From a virus: a stretch of DNA of 53,687 bases. This document shows, one piece after another, positions 1 through 53,687 of the stretch (the first letter of the stretch is position 1; each line of letters begins with the position of its first letter). The DNA is taken from positions 1 to 53,687 of IMG/VR virus record IMGVR_UViG_3300036827_000021. One strand, 5' to 3'. The position numbers and the translations under genes are program-made. Under the pieces are notes generated by a model, which saw nothing but the letters and a program-made list of their open reading frames with translations, was not told the origin of the DNA and made no database searches.

Positions 1-56
1 GGAAGCTACGTACCATGCAGTGTCGAATCCAAAGTCGGAAGGTCATGGGGTGAAGT

Positions 57-368
57 ATGAGGGGCAGCAAGGCAGCTGAGGGTGCGACCCGTACAGCACC
101 TAACGGGTACCACTACACCAAGGTGGATAGTAAGTGGAAGCTTACACACCACATCACGATGGAGAAGATCCTGGGTAGGCCTATCGATCTGTCTGTCGAG
201 CGCGTAGTGTTCAAGGAGGGCTACAGTTCTAAGGACTACGCCGACCCTGATGCCGTCGAAGTTCGAGTCAAGGGTGTCGTATCGAACACGAAGCAGATCG
301 CCAGGTTGATCGCTCGTAGGGATGAGATCCAAGCGCAGATTGATTTCCTCGAGGCTGAGAAACCTTAG
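57..368 (+). CDS. Degenerate HNH-like small protein
   Basis: A 103-residue protein laid out like the core of a small phage HNH endonuclease: an N-terminal NGYHYTKV strand, a W-KLTHHITMEKILGRPI helix-type segment, then a VERVVFKEG stretch where an active enzyme would carry a His-His-x-Asn-Gly motif. The catalytic histidines are replaced (VVFKEG) and no downstream Asn-x-x-His is seen, so it is probably a DNA-binding relic rather than a nuclease. The C-terminal 40 residues are a charged helix. The start has a GGGGTGAAG ribosome site 1-2 bases upstream in an AG-rich stretch. It is followed by 149 noncoding bases that hold a 95-nt element repeated at 36.7 kb. HNH ancestry is inferred from layout only. 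Confidence 0.55.
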   Translation: MRGSKAAEGATRTAPNGYHYTKVDSKWKLTHHITMEKILGRPIDLSVERVVFKEGYSSKDYADPDAVEVRVKGVVSNTKQIARLIARRDEIQAQIDFLEAEKP

Positions 369-46837: not shown

Positions 46838-47585
46838 TGTCATAGCAGTTGTGAGTGGAGGTCTTGACAGCGTCACAATGCTGTTTGACCTTGTTGCTCA
46901 AGGTTATGACGTAAAGCATGTGGTGTCGTTCGATTACGGTCAACGGCACGTGCGAGAGCTCGAGTACGCCAAGAGTGCTGCATGGATGTGCTTCGGTGAC
47001 GATCATCACTCTGTCATCAAGATGTACGACACGGGTCTGATGAAGTTCCTGAACGCAAGTGGTTCTTCGCTTGTGTCGCGTGCTACTGACGTTCCTGAAG
47101 GTCACTATGCACAGGACAACATGAAGGCAACTGTAGTACCCAACCGCAACATGATGATGCTGAGCATTGCATGTAGCATTGCAGTGTCACTTGATGCCAA
47201 CTACATCGCAACGGCAGTGCATGCAGGTGACCACTTCATCTACCCAGACTGCCGACCCGAGTTCCTTGGCAAGCTGGAACAGGCAATGGTTCTGGGCAAT
47301 AAAGGCTTCGGTCACTTTCAAGGTATTCTGGCACCTTACATTCGTGAGAGCAAAGAGTACATTGCAGGACGTGCTCTTGACCTTGGAGTACCTCTCGATC
47401 AGACCTGGAGTTGCTACAAGGGTGAAGGTGCACACTGCGGACGTTGTGGTACATGCGTCGAGCGTCTAGAAGCAATCGACATGGCATGCAAGGTGCGTGG
47501 GTACGACGTGGCAACAAGGGACCACACTGTGTATGCAGACAGGGAATACTGGAAGCAAGCTGTCAAGGAGGCAAGCAATGCCTAA
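46812..47585 (+). CDS. queC: 7-cyano-7-deazaguanine synthase
   Basis: QueC turns 7-carboxy-7-deazaguanine into preQ0 with ATP and ammonia. 257 residues. The PP-loop SGGLDSVTM is at residues 15-23; YGQRHVRELEYA follows; VPNRNMMMLSIACSIA is the conserved middle; SCYKGEGAHCGRCGTCVERLEA (about 208-230) holds the four zinc Cys (CYK...CGRCGTC). All catalytic elements are present. GTG start with AAGGAGA 9 bases upstream, inside the primase end. First gene of the modification operon. Confidence 0.92.
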   Translation: MNSNPDRGSVIAVVSGGLDSVTMLFDLVAQGYDVKHVVSFDYGQRHVRELEYAKSAAWMCFGDDHHSVIKMYDTGLMKFLNASGSSLVSRATDVPEGHYAQDNMKATVVPNRNMMMLSIACSIAVSLDANYIATAVHAGDHFIYPDCRPEFLGKLEQAMVLGNKGFGHFQGILAPYIRESKEYIAGRALDLGVPLDQTWSCYKGEGAHCGRCGTCVERLEAIDMACKVRGYDVATRDHTVYADREYWKQAVKEASNA

Positions 47586-47748
47586 GAAATTAGTCGAACT
47601 GATCTACAAGCATGCGCACGAGTGCAGTGCCAACGAGGAGGTGTTCAGCGTCAGACCCATAGTGAATGGAACCATTTACTTCAAGCAGGTACCTGTCTGC
47701 ATGGAGACCAACATCGAACTCGAACTTGTCGACAAGAGGTACAGCTAA
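47578..47748 (+). CDS. 56-residue protein between queC and queD
   Basis: Starts at the ATG overlapping the queC stop with AAGGAGGCAAGC upstream, ends overlapping queD (TAATG). KKLVELIYKHAHECSANEEVFSVRPIVNGTIYFKQVPVCMETNIELELVDKRYS. Small, mostly beta. Embedded in the preQ0 operon, so perhaps an accessory. Unrecognised. Confidence 0.6.
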   Translation: MPKKLVELIYKHAHECSANEEVFSVRPIVNGTIYFKQVPVCMETNIELELVDKRYS

Positions 47749-48107
47749 TGTACCAAATCACTAAGGAATTCAAGTTCAGTGCAGCACACCACCTGACCAA
47801 GGTGTACGAAGGTCACAAGTGTGCGCGCGTACATGGGCACAACTACACAGTCATCGTCATGCTCGAAGCTGAGCAGCTGAACGAGCAAGGTTTCGTAGAG
47901 GACTACGGAGATCTGCGCGACATCAAGGAATGGATCGACAGTACGTTTGATCATCGTGATCTGAACGACATTCTGTTGGTCGAGCCAACTGCAGAGAACC
48001 TTGCTCGACACATCTACGACGCGTTCAAGTTTGCGCACCCCCTGATGACCGTAGTCAAGGTGAAGGAGACTGATGGCACCTCTGCAAGCTACTACGAGAA
48101 CCTCTAA
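47748..48107 (+). CDS. queD: 6-carboxytetrahydropterin synthase
   Basis: QueD makes 6-carboxy-5,6,7,8-tetrahydropterin from dihydroneopterin triphosphate. 119 residues, normal length. FSAAHHL (zinc His), KCARVHGHNYTVIVML (catalytic Cys and the two zinc His), FVEDYGDLRDIKEWIDSTFDHRDLNDI and a late Glu (KVKETDGTSASY) match the family fully. Coupled by TAATG to the small gene before it. Confidence 0.93.
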   Translation: MYQITKEFKFSAAHHLTKVYEGHKCARVHGHNYTVIVMLEAEQLNEQGFVEDYGDLRDIKEWIDSTFDHRDLNDILLVEPTAENLARHIYDAFKFAHPLMTVVKVKETDGTSASYYENL

Positions 48108-48399: not shown

Positions 48400-48652
48400 G
48401 TGGCAGAACTTCTATGACACTGCCTACCAGATGAGTCAGACACCAGGTCACTCGGTCGAACAGCTGATCGCTACCAAGCAGGCACGTCTGCGAGTGCTAC
48501 TGCCTCGACTGTTCAAGAAGGTTGGCAAGCCGAAGAACGAGTCGGTGCGCGACACACTACTTGACCGTTGTGTGTATTCGACAATCGCAGTGGCATTGTT
48601 CGACGAAGGCTCGTACGATGAAGGTTGGAGCGACGGCCTTGCGACTCTCTGA
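48275..48652 (+). CDS. Nucleotide-modification-associated (DUF1599-like) protein
   Basis: A 125-residue helical protein: FERVVIEAVAMNRAKAADYAGVVTGDGKWQNFYDTAYQ, VEQLIATKQARLRVLLPRL, KPKNESVRDTLLDRCVYSTIAVALF. The pattern (K.ADYA...F.NF...K..R...l....nESv.DTLlD) is that of Nmad1/DUF1599 proteins found beside phage DNA-modification genes. Its place between queD and queE agrees. Role in the pathway unknown. Overlaps queE by 35 bases. Confidence 0.65.
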   Translation: MTSQTPITLDPSDPFERVVIEAVAMNRAKAADYAGVVTGDGKWQNFYDTAYQMSQTPGHSVEQLIATKQARLRVLLPRLFKKVGKPKNESVRDTLLDRCVYSTIAVALFDEGSYDEGWSDGLATL

Positions 48653-49334
48653 AATCTACCTGTCCGTTCAAGGAGAGGGTCCACGTGTCGGCAAGCCAAC
48701 TGTTTTTGTACGCTTCGGTGGTTGCAATCTTCGTTGTCCTGGTTGGCCTTGCGACACTCCTCACGCTATTGACGCTGAAACATATCGTCATGAGTGGCAG
48801 AAGAAGACCCCGGAAGAGGTAGTCGAGAACATCCACCAGGCGCAAGGTGCTCATGAGTCCACCAATGTCTGCTTCACAGGTGGCGAACCCTTCCTGCAGC
48901 CAGATGCAGAGATGGATGAGCTGATCAACATCCTGCTACAGGATGAACGTGTCTTCATGACTGAGGCGTTCACCAACGGTACAATCATGTGGACAGCGTT
49001 AGCCACAGACACCGTTGCAATGGTGATGGACTGGAAGCTGCCTGGTAGTGGTGAAGTGTCCAACAATGCCAACCGAACTGAGAACTTCCTTGGCATGACT
49101 TGGGGTGACTCAGTCAAGTTCACCATCAAGGACAAGACCGACTACGAGACAGCTAGGCGAATCTACGACATTTGGAAGGATAAGAACGAGAAGGTCGAGT
49201 GGTTCTTCGGTGCAGTGTGGGACACTGTCGACTACGACGAGCTCATCAACTGGGTGCTCGAAGACGGACTGCCTTGGCGATTCAACATGCAGGTCCACAA
49301 TCATGTGTGGGACCGAACACAAAGGGGCATCTAG
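48618..49334 (+). CDS. queE: 7-carboxy-7-deazaguanine synthase (radical SAM)
   Basis: QueE converts carboxytetrahydropterin to 7-carboxy-7-deazaguanine with a [4Fe-4S] cluster and SAM. 238 residues from the ATG at 48618 (GAAGG upstream); longer frames overlap and are rejected. EIYLSVQGEGPRVGKPTVFVRFGGCNLRC is diagnostic, followed by PGWPCDTPHAID. The cluster Cys spacing is C-x3-C-x4-C, not the standard C-x3-C-x2-C. VCFTGGEP is the SAM-binding GGEP motif. C-terminus: WRFNMQVHNHVWD. Confidence 0.9.
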   Translation: MKVGATALRLSEIYLSVQGEGPRVGKPTVFVRFGGCNLRCPGWPCDTPHAIDAETYRHEWQKKTPEEVVENIHQAQGAHESTNVCFTGGEPFLQPDAEMDELINILLQDERVFMTEAFTNGTIMWTALATDTVAMVMDWKLPGSGEVSNNANRTENFLGMTWGDSVKFTIKDKTDYETARRIYDIWKDKNEKVEWFFGAVWDTVDYDELINWVLEDGLPWRFNMQVHNHVWDRTQRGI

Positions 49335-49888
49335 TGACAGCTAGTCAAGAGTACTATGCGCAGGAGCTTCTTTCCTCTCTGGAAGCTTGGCATCGCACCT
49401 CAAAAGACCACACGCAGGGGACTGCTGCACGATTTGTGAAAGCCTTGGAGGAGATGACAACTCGTGGTGACTTCACCTTCACTACATTTACGGCTTCTGA
49501 CCAGAACATGGTCGTTATGCATCCGATTCCGTTCTACTCACTATGTGCACATCACGTTCTACCGTTCCACGGTGTGGCATCCGTCGGATACGTACCGCGA
49601 AGCAAGATCGCAGGGCTCAGCAAGCTGGCTCGCACCGTTCAGGAGCTCGCTAAGGGCTTCCACGTCCAAGAAGCACTTACCACTGAAATCTCGTCCTACC
49701 TCGACCATGAACTTGAGCCTCTCGGTGTTGCAGTTAGACTCAGGGCCTCGCATATGTGCATGGAGCTACGAGGAGCGCGAGTCTCCGGTGCGCTTACTAC
49801 TACAACCACAGTGACCGGGGTCTTTGCAGACCATACCCGAACAGCAAAGGCCGAATTCCTCGAAGCGATCAGGAGCACGAATGATTGA
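49334..49888 (+). CDS. folE: GTP cyclohydrolase I
   Basis: FolE opens GTP to dihydroneopterin triphosphate, first step of the preQ0 path. 184 residues from GTG at 49334, overlapping the queE stop. FYSLCAHHVLPFHGVASVGYVP holds the first zinc Cys and both His; GLSKLARTVQELAKGFHVQEALT is the conserved helix; SHMCMELRGARVSGALTTT holds the last zinc Cys. Complete and of normal type. Overlaps the next start (ATGATTGA). Confidence 0.93.
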   Translation: MTASQEYYAQELLSSLEAWHRTSKDHTQGTAARFVKALEEMTTRGDFTFTTFTASDQNMVVMHPIPFYSLCAHHVLPFHGVASVGYVPRSKIAGLSKLARTVQELAKGFHVQEALTTEISSYLDHELEPLGVAVRLRASHMCMELRGARVSGALTTTTTVTGVFADHTRTAKAEFLEAIRSTND

Positions 49889-50276
49889 CATACAAGGATC
49901 AGAACCTACACTGGGGCAGCTTGCCAAGCAATCTCTACTCGACTCAGAGAAGTGGTTCGACGACCTCGAGAACGACTGCATCTACAGCATCCCATATACA
50001 GTGCTGGCACTGTGCGGCGAGGCTGGTGAGCTTGCCAACATCATCAAGAAGATCGAACGCGGATCGCTGAGCTGGAAGGACTCTGGTACAAAGTACGATG
50101 CAGTAATGGAGAGCATCGACATCTTCGTGTACCTACTCAACTTCTGGGCACTTGCCAACGTCGACCCGTACAAGCTGCATCAGACAAAGCGTGCGATCAA
50201 CGACAAGCGCTTCATGGCTGAGCGTGCAGTGCGTGAAGCGAGGCGAGAGGCGGCAAATGACAACCCCTTCGAGTGA
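49881..50276 (+). CDS. MazG-like NTP pyrophosphohydrolase
   Basis: A 131-residue all-alpha protein: DDLENDCIYSIPYTVLALCGEAGELANIIKKIERGSLSW, YDAVMESIDIFVYLLNFWALANVD. GEAGELAN and the later ESIDIFVYL match the E-x-x-E and D/E-x-x-D metal motifs of MazG-type hydrolases. It would hydrolyse nucleoside triphosphates, perhaps removing unwanted dNTPs. Coupled to folE upstream and to the next gene. Confidence 0.75.
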   Translation: MIDIQGSEPTLGQLAKQSLLDSEKWFDDLENDCIYSIPYTVLALCGEAGELANIIKKIERGSLSWKDSGTKYDAVMESIDIFVYLLNFWALANVDPYKLHQTKRAINDKRFMAERAVREARREAANDNPFE

Positions 50277-50613
50277 ACAAGAAGTACAAGACATGACACA
50301 GTTGATCGAGGAGGCCAGCAGATCCTTTGACCAGCTGTGTCAGCAACGCCACGAGCATGGCCAGAAAGAGTATGGTGTCTTTACCTTCTTGGAAAACGAC
50401 GTCATACGGATGCTTGCGGAGGAACTCGCTGACACAGCCAACTACTGCCGTATGCAGTTCATCAAGCTGTTGCTCCTGCAAAAGATGCTAGAGGAGGAGT
50501 TGTCGGAAAAGTTAGATACTCCCTCTAGACTTTCCAAGCAAGGTCAGGATATAATTAGTTCAATAGGCAGTTTCAGAGGAACGGGGGAGCACGGATGGAC
50601 GTCGCACTCATAG
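50257..50613 (+). CDS. Second all-alpha NTP-PPase-like protein
   Basis: A 118-residue protein from the ATG at 50257 overlapping the MazG-like gene by 20 bases. QRHEHGQKEYGVFTFLENDVIRMLAEELADTANYCRMQFIKLLLLQ. The EELADTANY stretch has the E-E-x-x-D motif of the all-alpha NTP-PPase fold. Family uncertain. Promoter P50 lies in its 3' end. Overlaps the DpdA gene by 19 bases. Confidence 0.5.
   Translation: MTTPSSEQEVQDMTQLIEEASRSFDQLCQQRHEHGQKEYGVFTFLENDVIRMLAEELADTANYCRMQFIKLLLLQKMLEEELSEKLDTPSRLSKQGQDIISSIGSFRGTGEHGWTSHS
50526..50555 (+). promoter_or_regulatory. Promoter P50 in gene end (weak -35)
   Basis: TATAAT at 50550-50555 with AAGGTC four bases before it, as in the GAGGTC family. The -35 region (TAGACT at 18 bases) is weak. 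Would add transcription of the DpdA and polymerase genes. Confidence 0.5.
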
Positions 50614-51374
50614 CACCACTGGAGCTACTGGATATGCAAGACCGTGGTGAGATGCAACTCATGTTGCCACACATCCTGCACCCTGAATACGTGAAGCACT
50701 ACCGAGACAGGAAGCAGGGTGGTCTGTTTACCATTCTGGACAATGGTGCCGCCGAAGCTGTGAAGCCTACCGGACAAGAACTGCTTCGAGCAGCAGAGCT
50801 TTACAAGGTCAACGAACTCTGCATCTTCGATGTCCTCGGACGAGGATGGGAGACAGTACAAGAAGCCAACTACTTCTTCCAGTACTTCAGGAACAGAGCT
50901 ATCGACCTACATGCAGCGGGTGTGGCCTTTGGGTTCGTTGCACAAGGCTCTGACCTACACATTGCACAGCTTGCTGTTGACACAGTGATGTTGGCTCCCT
51001 ACGCACACATGATCAAGACTGTGTACCTTCCTCGACTGCTCCTCGATCATGGTGACTTGTACGCACGTGTGAAACTGGCTACTGTCATTCACAAGGCCTA
51101 TCCACATCTGAACATTCACCTGTTCGGTACGAATCGAAAGTGGATTCGTGAGGTGTATGCTGCCTCTCAGGAGTGCCCTTTCATTCGAAGCGTCGACACT
51201 TCCCTGCCGTTCGTAGCAGCTCAAGCAAACGTGCAACTGCACACTCGATTGCCACTTGTAGGCAATCGGCAACTTGACTTCTTCGAGCATGCCGTTTCAC
51301 GAGAGGAAAGGCTGCTGGCTACCTACAACGTCGATGTCTTCTTGAAGTGGGCACGTGGAGAGAGTTGTGACTGA
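50595..51374 (+). CDS. dpdA: DNA transglycosylase, TGT-like (DpdA)
   Basis: A 259-residue TIM-barrel-like protein. Best reading is phage DpdA, which swaps guanine in DNA for preQ0 or a derivative. Pattern: DVALIAPLELLDMQDRGEMQLMLPHILHP, GGLFTILDNGAAEAVKPTGQELLRAAELYKVNELCIFDVLG, then VAFGFVAQGSDLHIAQLAVD and MIKTVYLPRLLLDHGDLYARVKLATVI. DNGAAE carries an Asp in the place of the TGT nucleophile. TGT enzymes of RNA are about 370 residues; this short form fits phage DpdA. Position right after the four preQ0 genes supports the role. Ends within the polymerase start. Confidence 0.7.
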   Translation: MDVALIAPLELLDMQDRGEMQLMLPHILHPEYVKHYRDRKQGGLFTILDNGAAEAVKPTGQELLRAAELYKVNELCIFDVLGRGWETVQEANYFFQYFRNRAIDLHAAGVAFGFVAQGSDLHIAQLAVDTVMLAPYAHMIKTVYLPRLLLDHGDLYARVKLATVIHKAYPHLNIHLFGTNRKWIREVYAASQECPFIRSVDTSLPFVAAQANVQLHTRLPLVGNRQLDFFEHAVSREERLLATYNVDVFLKWARGESCD

Positions 51375-53687
51375 TGTCGAAATTCAACCCGGAGTGGTTC
51401 GAAAGCACCCTGTCGCAGAGTGCGAACGGTGTCCACTATATGCAGGGTCCAAGTTCGTACCTAGCGAAGGCCCAGCTCAAGCTAAGGTCGCTTTTGTCGG
51501 CGAAGCGCCAGGCGTTCAGGAAGCACGAGCAGGTAGGCCTTTCACTGGTCCGAGCGGTCAGCTGCTCAACAGAGTCATGCAGTACCACAACATCAAGCGA
51601 GAAGACGTCTTCCTCTCGAATGCTTGCCTTTGCCGTCCGGCAGATAATTCGACACCTCCCGCAGCCGCAATCAGTGCATGCCGAGTACGGCTCGTCTCCG
51701 AGCTACACGATCACGGAGTGGAACAAGTCGTGGCGCTGGGGAACTCTGCTTGTGAGTCTGTACTACAGCAATCAGGAGTCACCGCGCTTCGTGTCGGGCC
51801 TCCACGACGAAGCAGACCTTTGCCTGACTTGGAGGTCATCCCAACATTCCACCCCGCTGCTGCACTTCGCCAGGGAGATTTCTTCCCGTTCATCGTCAAG
51901 GATGTGGGGAAACTAAATGGAACCGGACTGGCACATTTTGCAGAGCCCCAGTTTCTCGTCGCTGAGGATCCAGGGCAGGCTATTGAGCTCCTCGAACAAG
52001 TCGAGAGACGAGCTACTGACGGAATTGTCATTGACATTGAGGTCGACGTTGAAAAAGACCTCGCTTTCGAGCACCCAGATCGATACGGCATGCTCTGCGT
52101 TGGGATTGGCTATGCTGAAGGAAAGGTGCTGGTTCTCGGTGAAAGTGCGATGGCTGACTTGGGGGTTCGAACTCGACTTCGAGAGTTGCTGCGACGAGTT
52201 AGGATCATTGGCCAGAACATCAAGTTTGACCTTCAGGGACTACATACCGTCTTCAAGGACATTGGAGGCCTAAGTGGAATCAGTGCCTACTTCGACACCA
52301 TGCTTGCCAGTTACGTCTGGGACGAGCGAAGAGGAATCCACGGACTCAAGGTTCAGGCTCAGGAAGACCTTGGAGCACCTGACTACTCTGCGGCAATCAA
52401 ACGATACGTTGGTCCTGGGATCGGTTATGGTGCTATACCCCGACCCCTACTTTACAAGTACAACGCCTGGGACGTTGCCTGTACATATGCGTTGTGGCAG
52501 ATGTATGAGAAGCGTTTCAGTGAACATCGAGACGGAGCGGAACTGCGACGAGTTCATGATCTACTTATTGCAGCATCTAATGAACTTGTGTACGTTGAAC
52601 TCAATGGGATAACCGTCGACACCAAGTACATGCATGAGGTTGAAGCCGAGATGGTGCAAGAGCTTGGCATCATCGAGGAAGAGATGGACAAGATCATCGA
52701 CATGCCAGGCTTGCAGGTAGACTTCAGGCCAGCTAAGCAAGGTGGCGGTATCAACCCAAGATCGCCTAAGCAGATCACTGAGTACCTTGCCACACGTGGT
52801 GTGCGTGTAAAGTCGACCAACGAGGACACAATCACTACACTGCTAGATAAACTTCGGTCGCGAGAGAGTCTGAACTTTCCACATCGTGACGAGGTCACCA
52901 AGTTCTGCAACGCACTACTCATTCACAGGACAAAGGCGAAGCTGTATGGAACTTATATCAAGGGAACGAGAAAGCGACTATATCGTGGTCGTGTGTACCC
53001 TACATTTCTCCTGCACGGAACTACCACTGGGCGCCTTAGTTGTAGGAACCCTAACCTGCAGAACGTTCCCAGAGGATCCGCTATTCGAAAGCTCTTTGTA
53101 CCGGGCGCGCCGGATCGCGTCTTTGTCCAAACGGATTACGGTCAGGCTGAACTACGTGTCCTCAGTTTTCTGGCTGGAGATCAATACTTTAGGAACATCT
53201 TCTGGACTCCAGAGATCGACCTCTTCGATGACCTCACGCCCATTGTTTTCCCTTCCGCAGGAGCTAAGGAAGCAACTGACCCGGCACTATGGAAAGAATT
53301 CCGTGTTCGCGTCAAGGCCTTCGTTTACGGCCTCGCTTACGGACGCACTGCTGAGGGTCTCGCCGCCGAGTACGAAATGTCTCTGGCTGAAGCAAGAGTC
53401 GCTCGAGATAACTTCTTCGACGTCATTCCTGAGATCAACCAATACCTACGGGACATTCGCCTGAGTGTCCGAGCTGGTAAACACCTAGTAACACCCTTCG
53501 GCAGGCACCGTCGCTTCTACTTACTGACCAAGGAGAATCAGAAGGACGTCTTCAACCAAGCACAAGCGTTCGTGCCTCAGTCAACTGCTTCGGACATCTG
53601 CTTGAGTGCAATGATCGAAGTACGTAAAGACCTGAAGGGTATCGGTTGGGTTCGTAACATCGTGCACGACTCGATCCTAGCTGAGTG
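51367..53687 (+). CDS. Uracil-DNA glycosylase / 3'-5' exonuclease / DNA polymerase A fusion (partial)
   Basis: One open frame of at least 773 codons, cut by the window end. GTG at 51367 has GGAGAG upstream and overlaps DpdA by 8 bases. Residues 1-170: family-4-type UDG with Fe-S Cys 19, 22, 87 or 89, and 105; GEAPG at 45-49, GRPFTGPSGQLL at 56-67, TFHPAAALR at 160-168. Residues 215-375: exonuclease, DIE at 223-225, NIKFD to Asp288, YNAWD to Asp369. Polymerase: motif A DYGQAELR from Asp590, motif B with Lys650 and Tyr654 (the place of Phe762 in E. coli Pol I), motif C HD at 767-768. All catalytic residues seen are intact. Confidence 0.85.
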   Translation, partial: MTDVEIQPGVVRKHPVAECERCPLYAGSKFVPSEGPAQAKVAFVGEAPGVQEARAGRPFTGPSGQLLNRVMQYHNIKREDVFLSNACLCRPADNSTPPAAAISACRVRLVSELHDHGVEQVVALGNSACESVLQQSGVTALRVGPPRRSRPLPDLEVIPTFHPAAALRQGDFFPFIVKDVGKLNGTGLAHFAEPQFLVAEDPGQAIELLEQVERRATDGIVIDIEVDVEKDLAFEHPDRYGMLCVGIGYAEGKVLVLGESAMADLGVRTRLRELLRRVRIIGQNIKFDLQGLHTVFKDIGGLSGISAYFDTMLASYVWDERRGIHGLKVQAQEDLGAPDYSAAIKRYVGPGIGYGAIPRPLLYKYNAWDVACTYALWQMYEKRFSEHRDGAELRRVHDLLIAASNELVYVELNGITVDTKYMHEVEAEMVQELGIIEEEMDKIIDMPGLQVDFRPAKQGGGINPRSPKQITEYLATRGVRVKSTNEDTITTLLDKLRSRESLNFPHRDEVTKFCNALLIHRTKAKLYGTYIKGTRKRLYRGRVYPTFLLHGTTTGRLSCRNPNLQNVPRGSAIRKLFVPGAPDRVFVQTDYGQAELRVLSFLAGDQYFRNIFWTPEIDLFDDLTPIVFPSAGAKEATDPALWKEFRVRVKAFVYGLAYGRTAEGLAAEYEMSLAEARVARDNFFDVIPEINQYLRDIRLSVRAGKHLVTPFGRHRRFYLLTKENQKDVFNQAQAFVPQSTASDICLSAMIEVRKDLKGIGWVRNIVHDSILAE

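Follow-up and report, generated by a model that had tools for sequence, protein, structure and literature searches.

Why should the replicase of a phage carry a uracil-DNA glycosylase (UDG)? The question is raised by a virus record (IMGVR_UViG_3300036827_000021) whose 53,687 nucleotides, analysed in full and referred to here as the window, end inside a gene that joins a UDG to a proofreading family A DNA polymerase (PolA). The occurrence of intact, broken and truncated glycosylases on one polymerase backbone makes the question testable, with uracil removal, processivity or both as candidate answers.

Reading frame and contig ends

Codon reading from the GTG at 51367 to the contig end revealed a single open frame without a stop, in agreement with the original prediction. 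This GTG is a plausible start, with GGAGAG just 5' of it and an overlap with the stop of the preceding gene. The record contains nothing beyond its 53,687 bases, and the stop, which the prediction had proposed to find by extending the contig, was located at window 58-60, at the other end of the same contig, because the gene wraps round the contig ends. The peptide encoded by bases 1-60 matches the C-termini of relatives' polymerases. Close relatives carry approximately 44 residues (mostly 43-45 aa) after the last residue of the window, with tails such as GDYVKFATETKVGRSWGTV before the stop. From these tail lengths and the matching peptide, approximately 25 residues (73 nt, which preserves the frame) would have been lost at the contig break, giving a complete protein of near 817 aa. 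The two ends suggest a circular or circularly permuted genome opened within the polymerase gene, although no read spans the gap. The features are listed in Table 1.

Table 1. Features of the fusion gene, its upstream operon and the matching T5-like termini. Coordinates are window positions unless a locus is named.
Feature	Position	Strand	Evidence or remark
QueC, SGGLDS motif intact	46848..47585	+	Pfam QueC E 7e-44; start codon unsure
QueD	47748..48107	+	Pfam PTPS E 1.7e-31
QueE, radical SAM 7-carboxy-7-deazaguanine synthase	48618..49334	+	Pfam Radical_SAM E 2.9e-8 and place between QueD and FolE
FolE, GTP cyclohydrolase I	49355..49888	+	phrog_2197 E 1.6e-47; start unsure, frame open from 49199
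MazG-like pyrophosphatase	49881..50276	+	phrog_229 E 4e-4
Small operon protein, no family match	50257..50613	+	homologue upstream in 51/79 related loci
DpdA/TGT-fold gene, 259 aa, overlaps polymerase start	50595..51374	+	AF2 and Foldseek
UDG-exonuclease-polymerase A fusion gene	51367..53687	+	start and first 773 codons; 123 distinct full-length relatives
Family-4-like UDG domain (residues ~19-186)	51421..51924	+	PF03167 E 3.5e-28; C19, C22, E46, F59, N85, C89, C105, H162
3'-5' proofreading exonuclease domain (residues ~219-400)	52021..52566	+	motifs D223/E225, D288, Y365/D369
Family A polymerase domain (residues 401-773)	52567..53685	+	motifs A, B, C
Last 19 codons and stop codon (TGA, 58-60) of the fusion polymerase	1..60	+	reads GSYVPCSVESKVGRSWGEV, then stop
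T5-like polymerase N-termini matching UDG	L178:1856-2254; L179:1775-2176; L180:1763-2161		hhalign

Domain architecture and glycosylase class

The UDG, the exonuclease and the polymerase had been predicted to lie in one chain, and Pfam places them in that order: UDG, DNA_pol_A_exo1 (residues 267-378, E 2e-5) and DNA_pol_A (459-772, E 2.7e-50), with phrog_17 alone covering residues 35-773. This is the arrangement of the SPO1-type fusions. The chain contains the exonuclease motifs (D223/E225, N284-D288, Y365-D369) and polymerase motifs A (D590, E595), B (R646, K650, Y658) and C (H767-D768), all of them near-invariant, so that motifs A, B, C and Exo I-III of a proofreading family A polymerase are complete. 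The AF2 model of the fusion protein (mean pLDDT 89, pTM 0.86, UDG blocks mostly >90) resembles the Klenow (1kfs, E 2e-27) and Bst structures. Residue 654 in the O-helix (window 53326-53328) is a tyrosine in the window protein and in 95/124 aligned proteins; this position corresponds to Taq F667 and is known to affect ddNTP discrimination.

The UDG superfamily fold is assigned by PF03167 over residues 32-170 (98.9 bits against a cut-off of 24.3), and the domain contains the motifs GEAPG (45-49), GRPFTGPSG (56-64) and TFHPAAALR (160-168). Cysteines 19, 22, 89 and 105 align with Tth UDG Cys 13, 16, 84 and 100 (PDB-chain numbering), the four Fe-S cysteines. The Tth residues E41, F54, N80 and the histidine of its HPA motif have their counterparts in E46, F59, N85 and H162, which reproduce the GE(A/G)PG, stacking Phe, Asn and HP(A/S) signatures and presumably play the same roles in the uracil pocket as their family-4 equivalents. 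The PDB matches of the domain are TM0511 (1vk2) and Tth UDGa (1ui0), family-4 enzymes sharing all mapped catalytic and Fe-S residues with it; both are stand-alone repair enzymes, whereas the UDG of the window is fused to a polymerase. The domain is termed family-4-like because it missed the NCBIfam type-4 cut-offs (TIGR00758, 112.3/125.3 bits; NF040953, 117.1/250 bits). Identity with UdgX, which cross-links to uracil-DNA, was rejected (TIGR03914, 85.9/189.95 bits; KRRIH absent from the translated domain).

Relatives and conservation

A scan of viral contigs from the single protein gave no matches; closer alignments, one of the polymerase and one of the UDG, then recovered 147 viral loci with both parts in one open frame, corresponding to 123 distinct proteins with up to 58% identity to the window protein. 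Conservation was counted in the 73 relatives picked by polymerase patterns only, because a scan with UDG patterns pre-selects UDG motifs. In these relatives E46 is kept in 69/71, F59 in 72/73, N85 in 73/73 and H162 in 71/73, and the four Fe-S cysteines are invariant wherever aligned. Median dN/dS values (UDG 0.138, exonuclease 0.097, polymerase 0.095) indicate that the UDG domain is under purifying selection, with a ratio close to that of the polymerase. This conservation of catalytic residues supports a working glycosylase in the window's lineage.

Two relatives deserve separate mention. In Caulobacter phage Kuura (L019:3977-7381) the UDG-containing part and the polymerase lie on separate ORFs. 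A full-length relative with 42% identity occurs in DF820483.1 (L181), a scaffold assigned to Bacterium UASB270; genome contigs yielded no other close relative, and this one represents a provirus or a co-assembled phage.

The upstream 7-deazaguanine operon

The expected 7-deazaguanine context was confirmed, with QueC, QueD, QueE, FolE and a DpdA-like gene upstream of the polymerase. For the DpdA-like gene, tblastn against phage records gave no match and a 4-sequence profile against the PDB gave no convincing one; the fold search settled its identity (AF2 pLDDT 94; Foldseek TGT 3hfy E 1.7e-6, DpdA 7ui4 E 3.5e-6), and a profile match to 7ui4 was obtained at E 0.009. The modelled TGT-like fold, alongside the preQ0 genes QueC, QueD, QueE and FolE, makes this gene a probable DNA-guanine transglycosylase. 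It belongs to a divergent DpdA/TGT-fold family unnamed by Pfam or PHROGs, some members of which weakly match DUF6610.

Among the 79 related loci with enough upstream sequence, a count that includes a few contigs fetched twice, the DpdA-like gene lies directly upstream of the polymerase in 67 and at least one preQ0 gene is present in 69. MaInes, BSP7 and Youna2 have the same gene order. The closure of a conserved QueC-QueD-QueE-FolE-DpdA operon by the UDG-PolA gene of this lineage is new here, and the link of the operon to the polymerase may amount to co-expression only. In phages, preQ0 is inserted into the DNA by DpdA (PMC6884629), and given this operon the DNA of the window's phage probably carries 7-deazaguanine.

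Comparison with known fusions

The rarity of the fusion implied by the original prediction did not hold. Fusions of this kind have been published from SPO1, Shbh1 and PaBG-group phages, and the architecture is widespread in phage records, including many isolated phages. SPO1 gp31 and its counterparts in SP82G, CampHawk, LysYB1 and Shbh1 combine an N-terminal UDG-superfamily domain, a 3'-5' exonuclease and a family A polymerase, like the window; SPO1 differs in lacking the Fe-S cysteines and in carrying M for F59 and S for N85, and its locus has a dUMP hydroxymethylase annotated near the polymerase. The UDG domain of the SPO1 and Shbh1 polymerases has been noted and a processivity role suggested (PMC5135824). 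The DNA polymerase I of the PaBG/Lupandier-group jumbo phages, likened to the window by published description only, has the same three-domain order, and BLASTP in that study found no close UDG outside the Lupandier group (PMC7412058).

The polymerase of Thermus phage phiLo (PDB 9qhs) is a UDG-PolA with a solved structure and intact GEAPG, Asn, His and Cys motifs. It is remote in the polymerase tree and, with long insertions, reaches 1175 aa against ~817 for that of the window. Brevundimonas phage MaInes has intact UDG residues and the same upstream order as the window (QueC, QueD, QueE, DpdA-like, polymerase); its polymerase shares ~30% identity with the window's, and it has its own thymidylate synthase and dUTPase. 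An apparent intron separates the motif B residues FG and YG in the polymerase genes of BSP7 (L007:3977-6880) and Youna2 (L013:3887-7156), each of which is annotated as two polymerases.

Intact, broken and truncated glycosylase domains

Loss of the catalytic residues on alignment had been named as a result that would refute the original prediction; they are kept in the window's lineage and lost in other fused polymerases. The active site is intact in that lineage and in MaInes, phiLo, vir526 and ctfzr933. Besides SPO1, altered sites occur in LysYB1 (E to D, F to M, N to G), in the pair PMBT14 and Serbin, which share E to D and N to P, and in BSP7 and Youna2 (E to D, N to Y). The contrast between a glycosylase site that is, as read from aligned residues, intact in the window and broken in SPO1-like, PMBT14/Serbin-like and BSP7-like polymerases is new here.

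Truncation was also observed. The polymerase of Gordonia phage Quasar (L176:1784-2290) retains only the C-terminal half of the UDG domain (HMM E 1e-9) and has another residue in place of the catalytic His; by this match Quasar keeps a truncated UDG relict as its polymerase N-terminus, which is likewise new here. T5-like polymerases gave a weak single-sequence UDG match (E 0.36), while their N-terminal ~130 residues (133) matched the UDG profile in hhalign with a probability of 89-97%; at a score of 42 (probability 89%), none of 20 column-shuffled controls exceeded 19 and the reverse control scored 10. The segment is co-linear with the UDG half preceding the exonuclease. The T5-like N-terminus is thus probably a truncated, catalytically dead UDG relict, which offers a possible origin for the extra N-terminus of T5 polymerase; a literature search on T5 polymerase termini gave no relevant account.

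In a tree of the exonuclease and polymerase domains, whose root is unknown, the intact state is scattered over deep branches, so that the tree requires seven changes of state; support is weak at ten inner branches, some rows are long, and the XF1 and ctSAF950 labels are approximate. The actinophage polymerases Amigo and Yappy, nested near the window's clade, have no recognisable UDG. Repeated UDG loss from an old fusion fits the tree. A broader scenario can be proposed tentatively, at somewhat less than even confidence: an old phage UDG-PolA replicase with built-in uracil excision, still active in a large lineage of uncultured soil phages and elsewhere repeatedly deprived of catalysis or truncated, ending as the so far unexplained T5-type N-terminus, with catalysis and DNA handling as separable roles of the fused UDG.

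An association between a broken UDG and a thymidylate-synthase-like gene was considered and rejected, with exceptions both ways and only 3-4 independent pairs, which leave a sign test powerless. The gene accompanies a broken or truncated UDG in PMBT14, Serbin, LysYB1, SPO1, Quasar and T5, and an intact one in MaInes and ctfzr933; it is absent from BSP7 and Youna2, where the pocket is altered.

Functional interpretation

We favour, with moderate confidence drawn from sequence, the view that the gene encodes the only detected DNA polymerase of the phage, a proofreading family A enzyme whose N-terminal, catalytically competent family-4-like Fe-S UDG would excise uracil. Each of 20/20 records (the window and 19 related ones) was found to have a single PolA and a single UDG, encoded in one frame, and no dUTPase, dCMP deaminase, ThyX or ThyA was found in these 20 IMG/VR records, the completeness of which is not known. 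Uracil would arise by cytosine deamination or by misincorporation of dUMP, the dUTP pool being unpoliced; the tethered UDG would excise it where replication takes place or immediately behind, and the repair would be completed by base-excision enzymes of the host, while the DpdA operon, co-inherited with the fusion gene, would act separately, on guanine. A phage without dUTP policing whose only detected polymerase carries a UDG fits replication-coupled uracil removal; against it, a uracil excised from a single-stranded template would leave a site that blocks the polymerase. An active UDG-polymerase could help or harm uracil-based DNA methods.

A DNA-handling role is the main rival to uracil removal and may coexist with it. 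Vaccinia D4 is a UDG that acts in the poxvirus processivity factor. That the domain here is mainly a DNA-binding or processivity clamp, with glycosylase activity incidental or absent, is a distinctly less probable but serious explanation; it agrees with the role suggested for SPO1 and Shbh1 (PMC5135824), with the persistence of broken sites in SPO1, LysYB1, PMBT14, Serbin and BSP7, and with the truncated relicts in Quasar and probably in T5-like polymerases. Several other fused polymerases have lost key residues but retain the domain, which can therefore be useful without catalysis. However, pure DNA binding would not need the near-invariant pocket residues and Fe-S cysteines of the window's lineage, and the Amigo and Yappy polymerases do without a recognisable UDG near the window's clade.

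A role in quality control of the DpdA pathway, in which the domain would excise a non-uracil base, for example a 7-deazaguanine derivative that has been deaminated or wrongly made, appears quite improbable. The DpdA-like gene adjoining the polymerase, in most related loci as in MaInes, BSP7 and Youna2, is all that speaks for it; ordinary family-4 UDGs have the same uracil-selecting residues (F59 and N85), the pocket is altered in BSP7 and Youna2 despite their operon, and the UDG motifs are intact in phiLo, Rhizobium, Mel-JY34 and vir526, where the annotation shows no preQ0 genes adjoining the polymerase. That the fusion was produced from two genes by an assembly error or a frameshift, the split that the original prediction had proposed to look for, has a negligible probability: the contig does end inside the gene and one relative has a stop codon between the parts, but the single-frame relatives rule out a frameshift or chimeric origin, and the fusion recurs in isolated phages. 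In that relative (L048:3291-5681) the UDG and polymerase parts share a frame, and the single stop codon between them reflects either a sequencing error or stop read-through.
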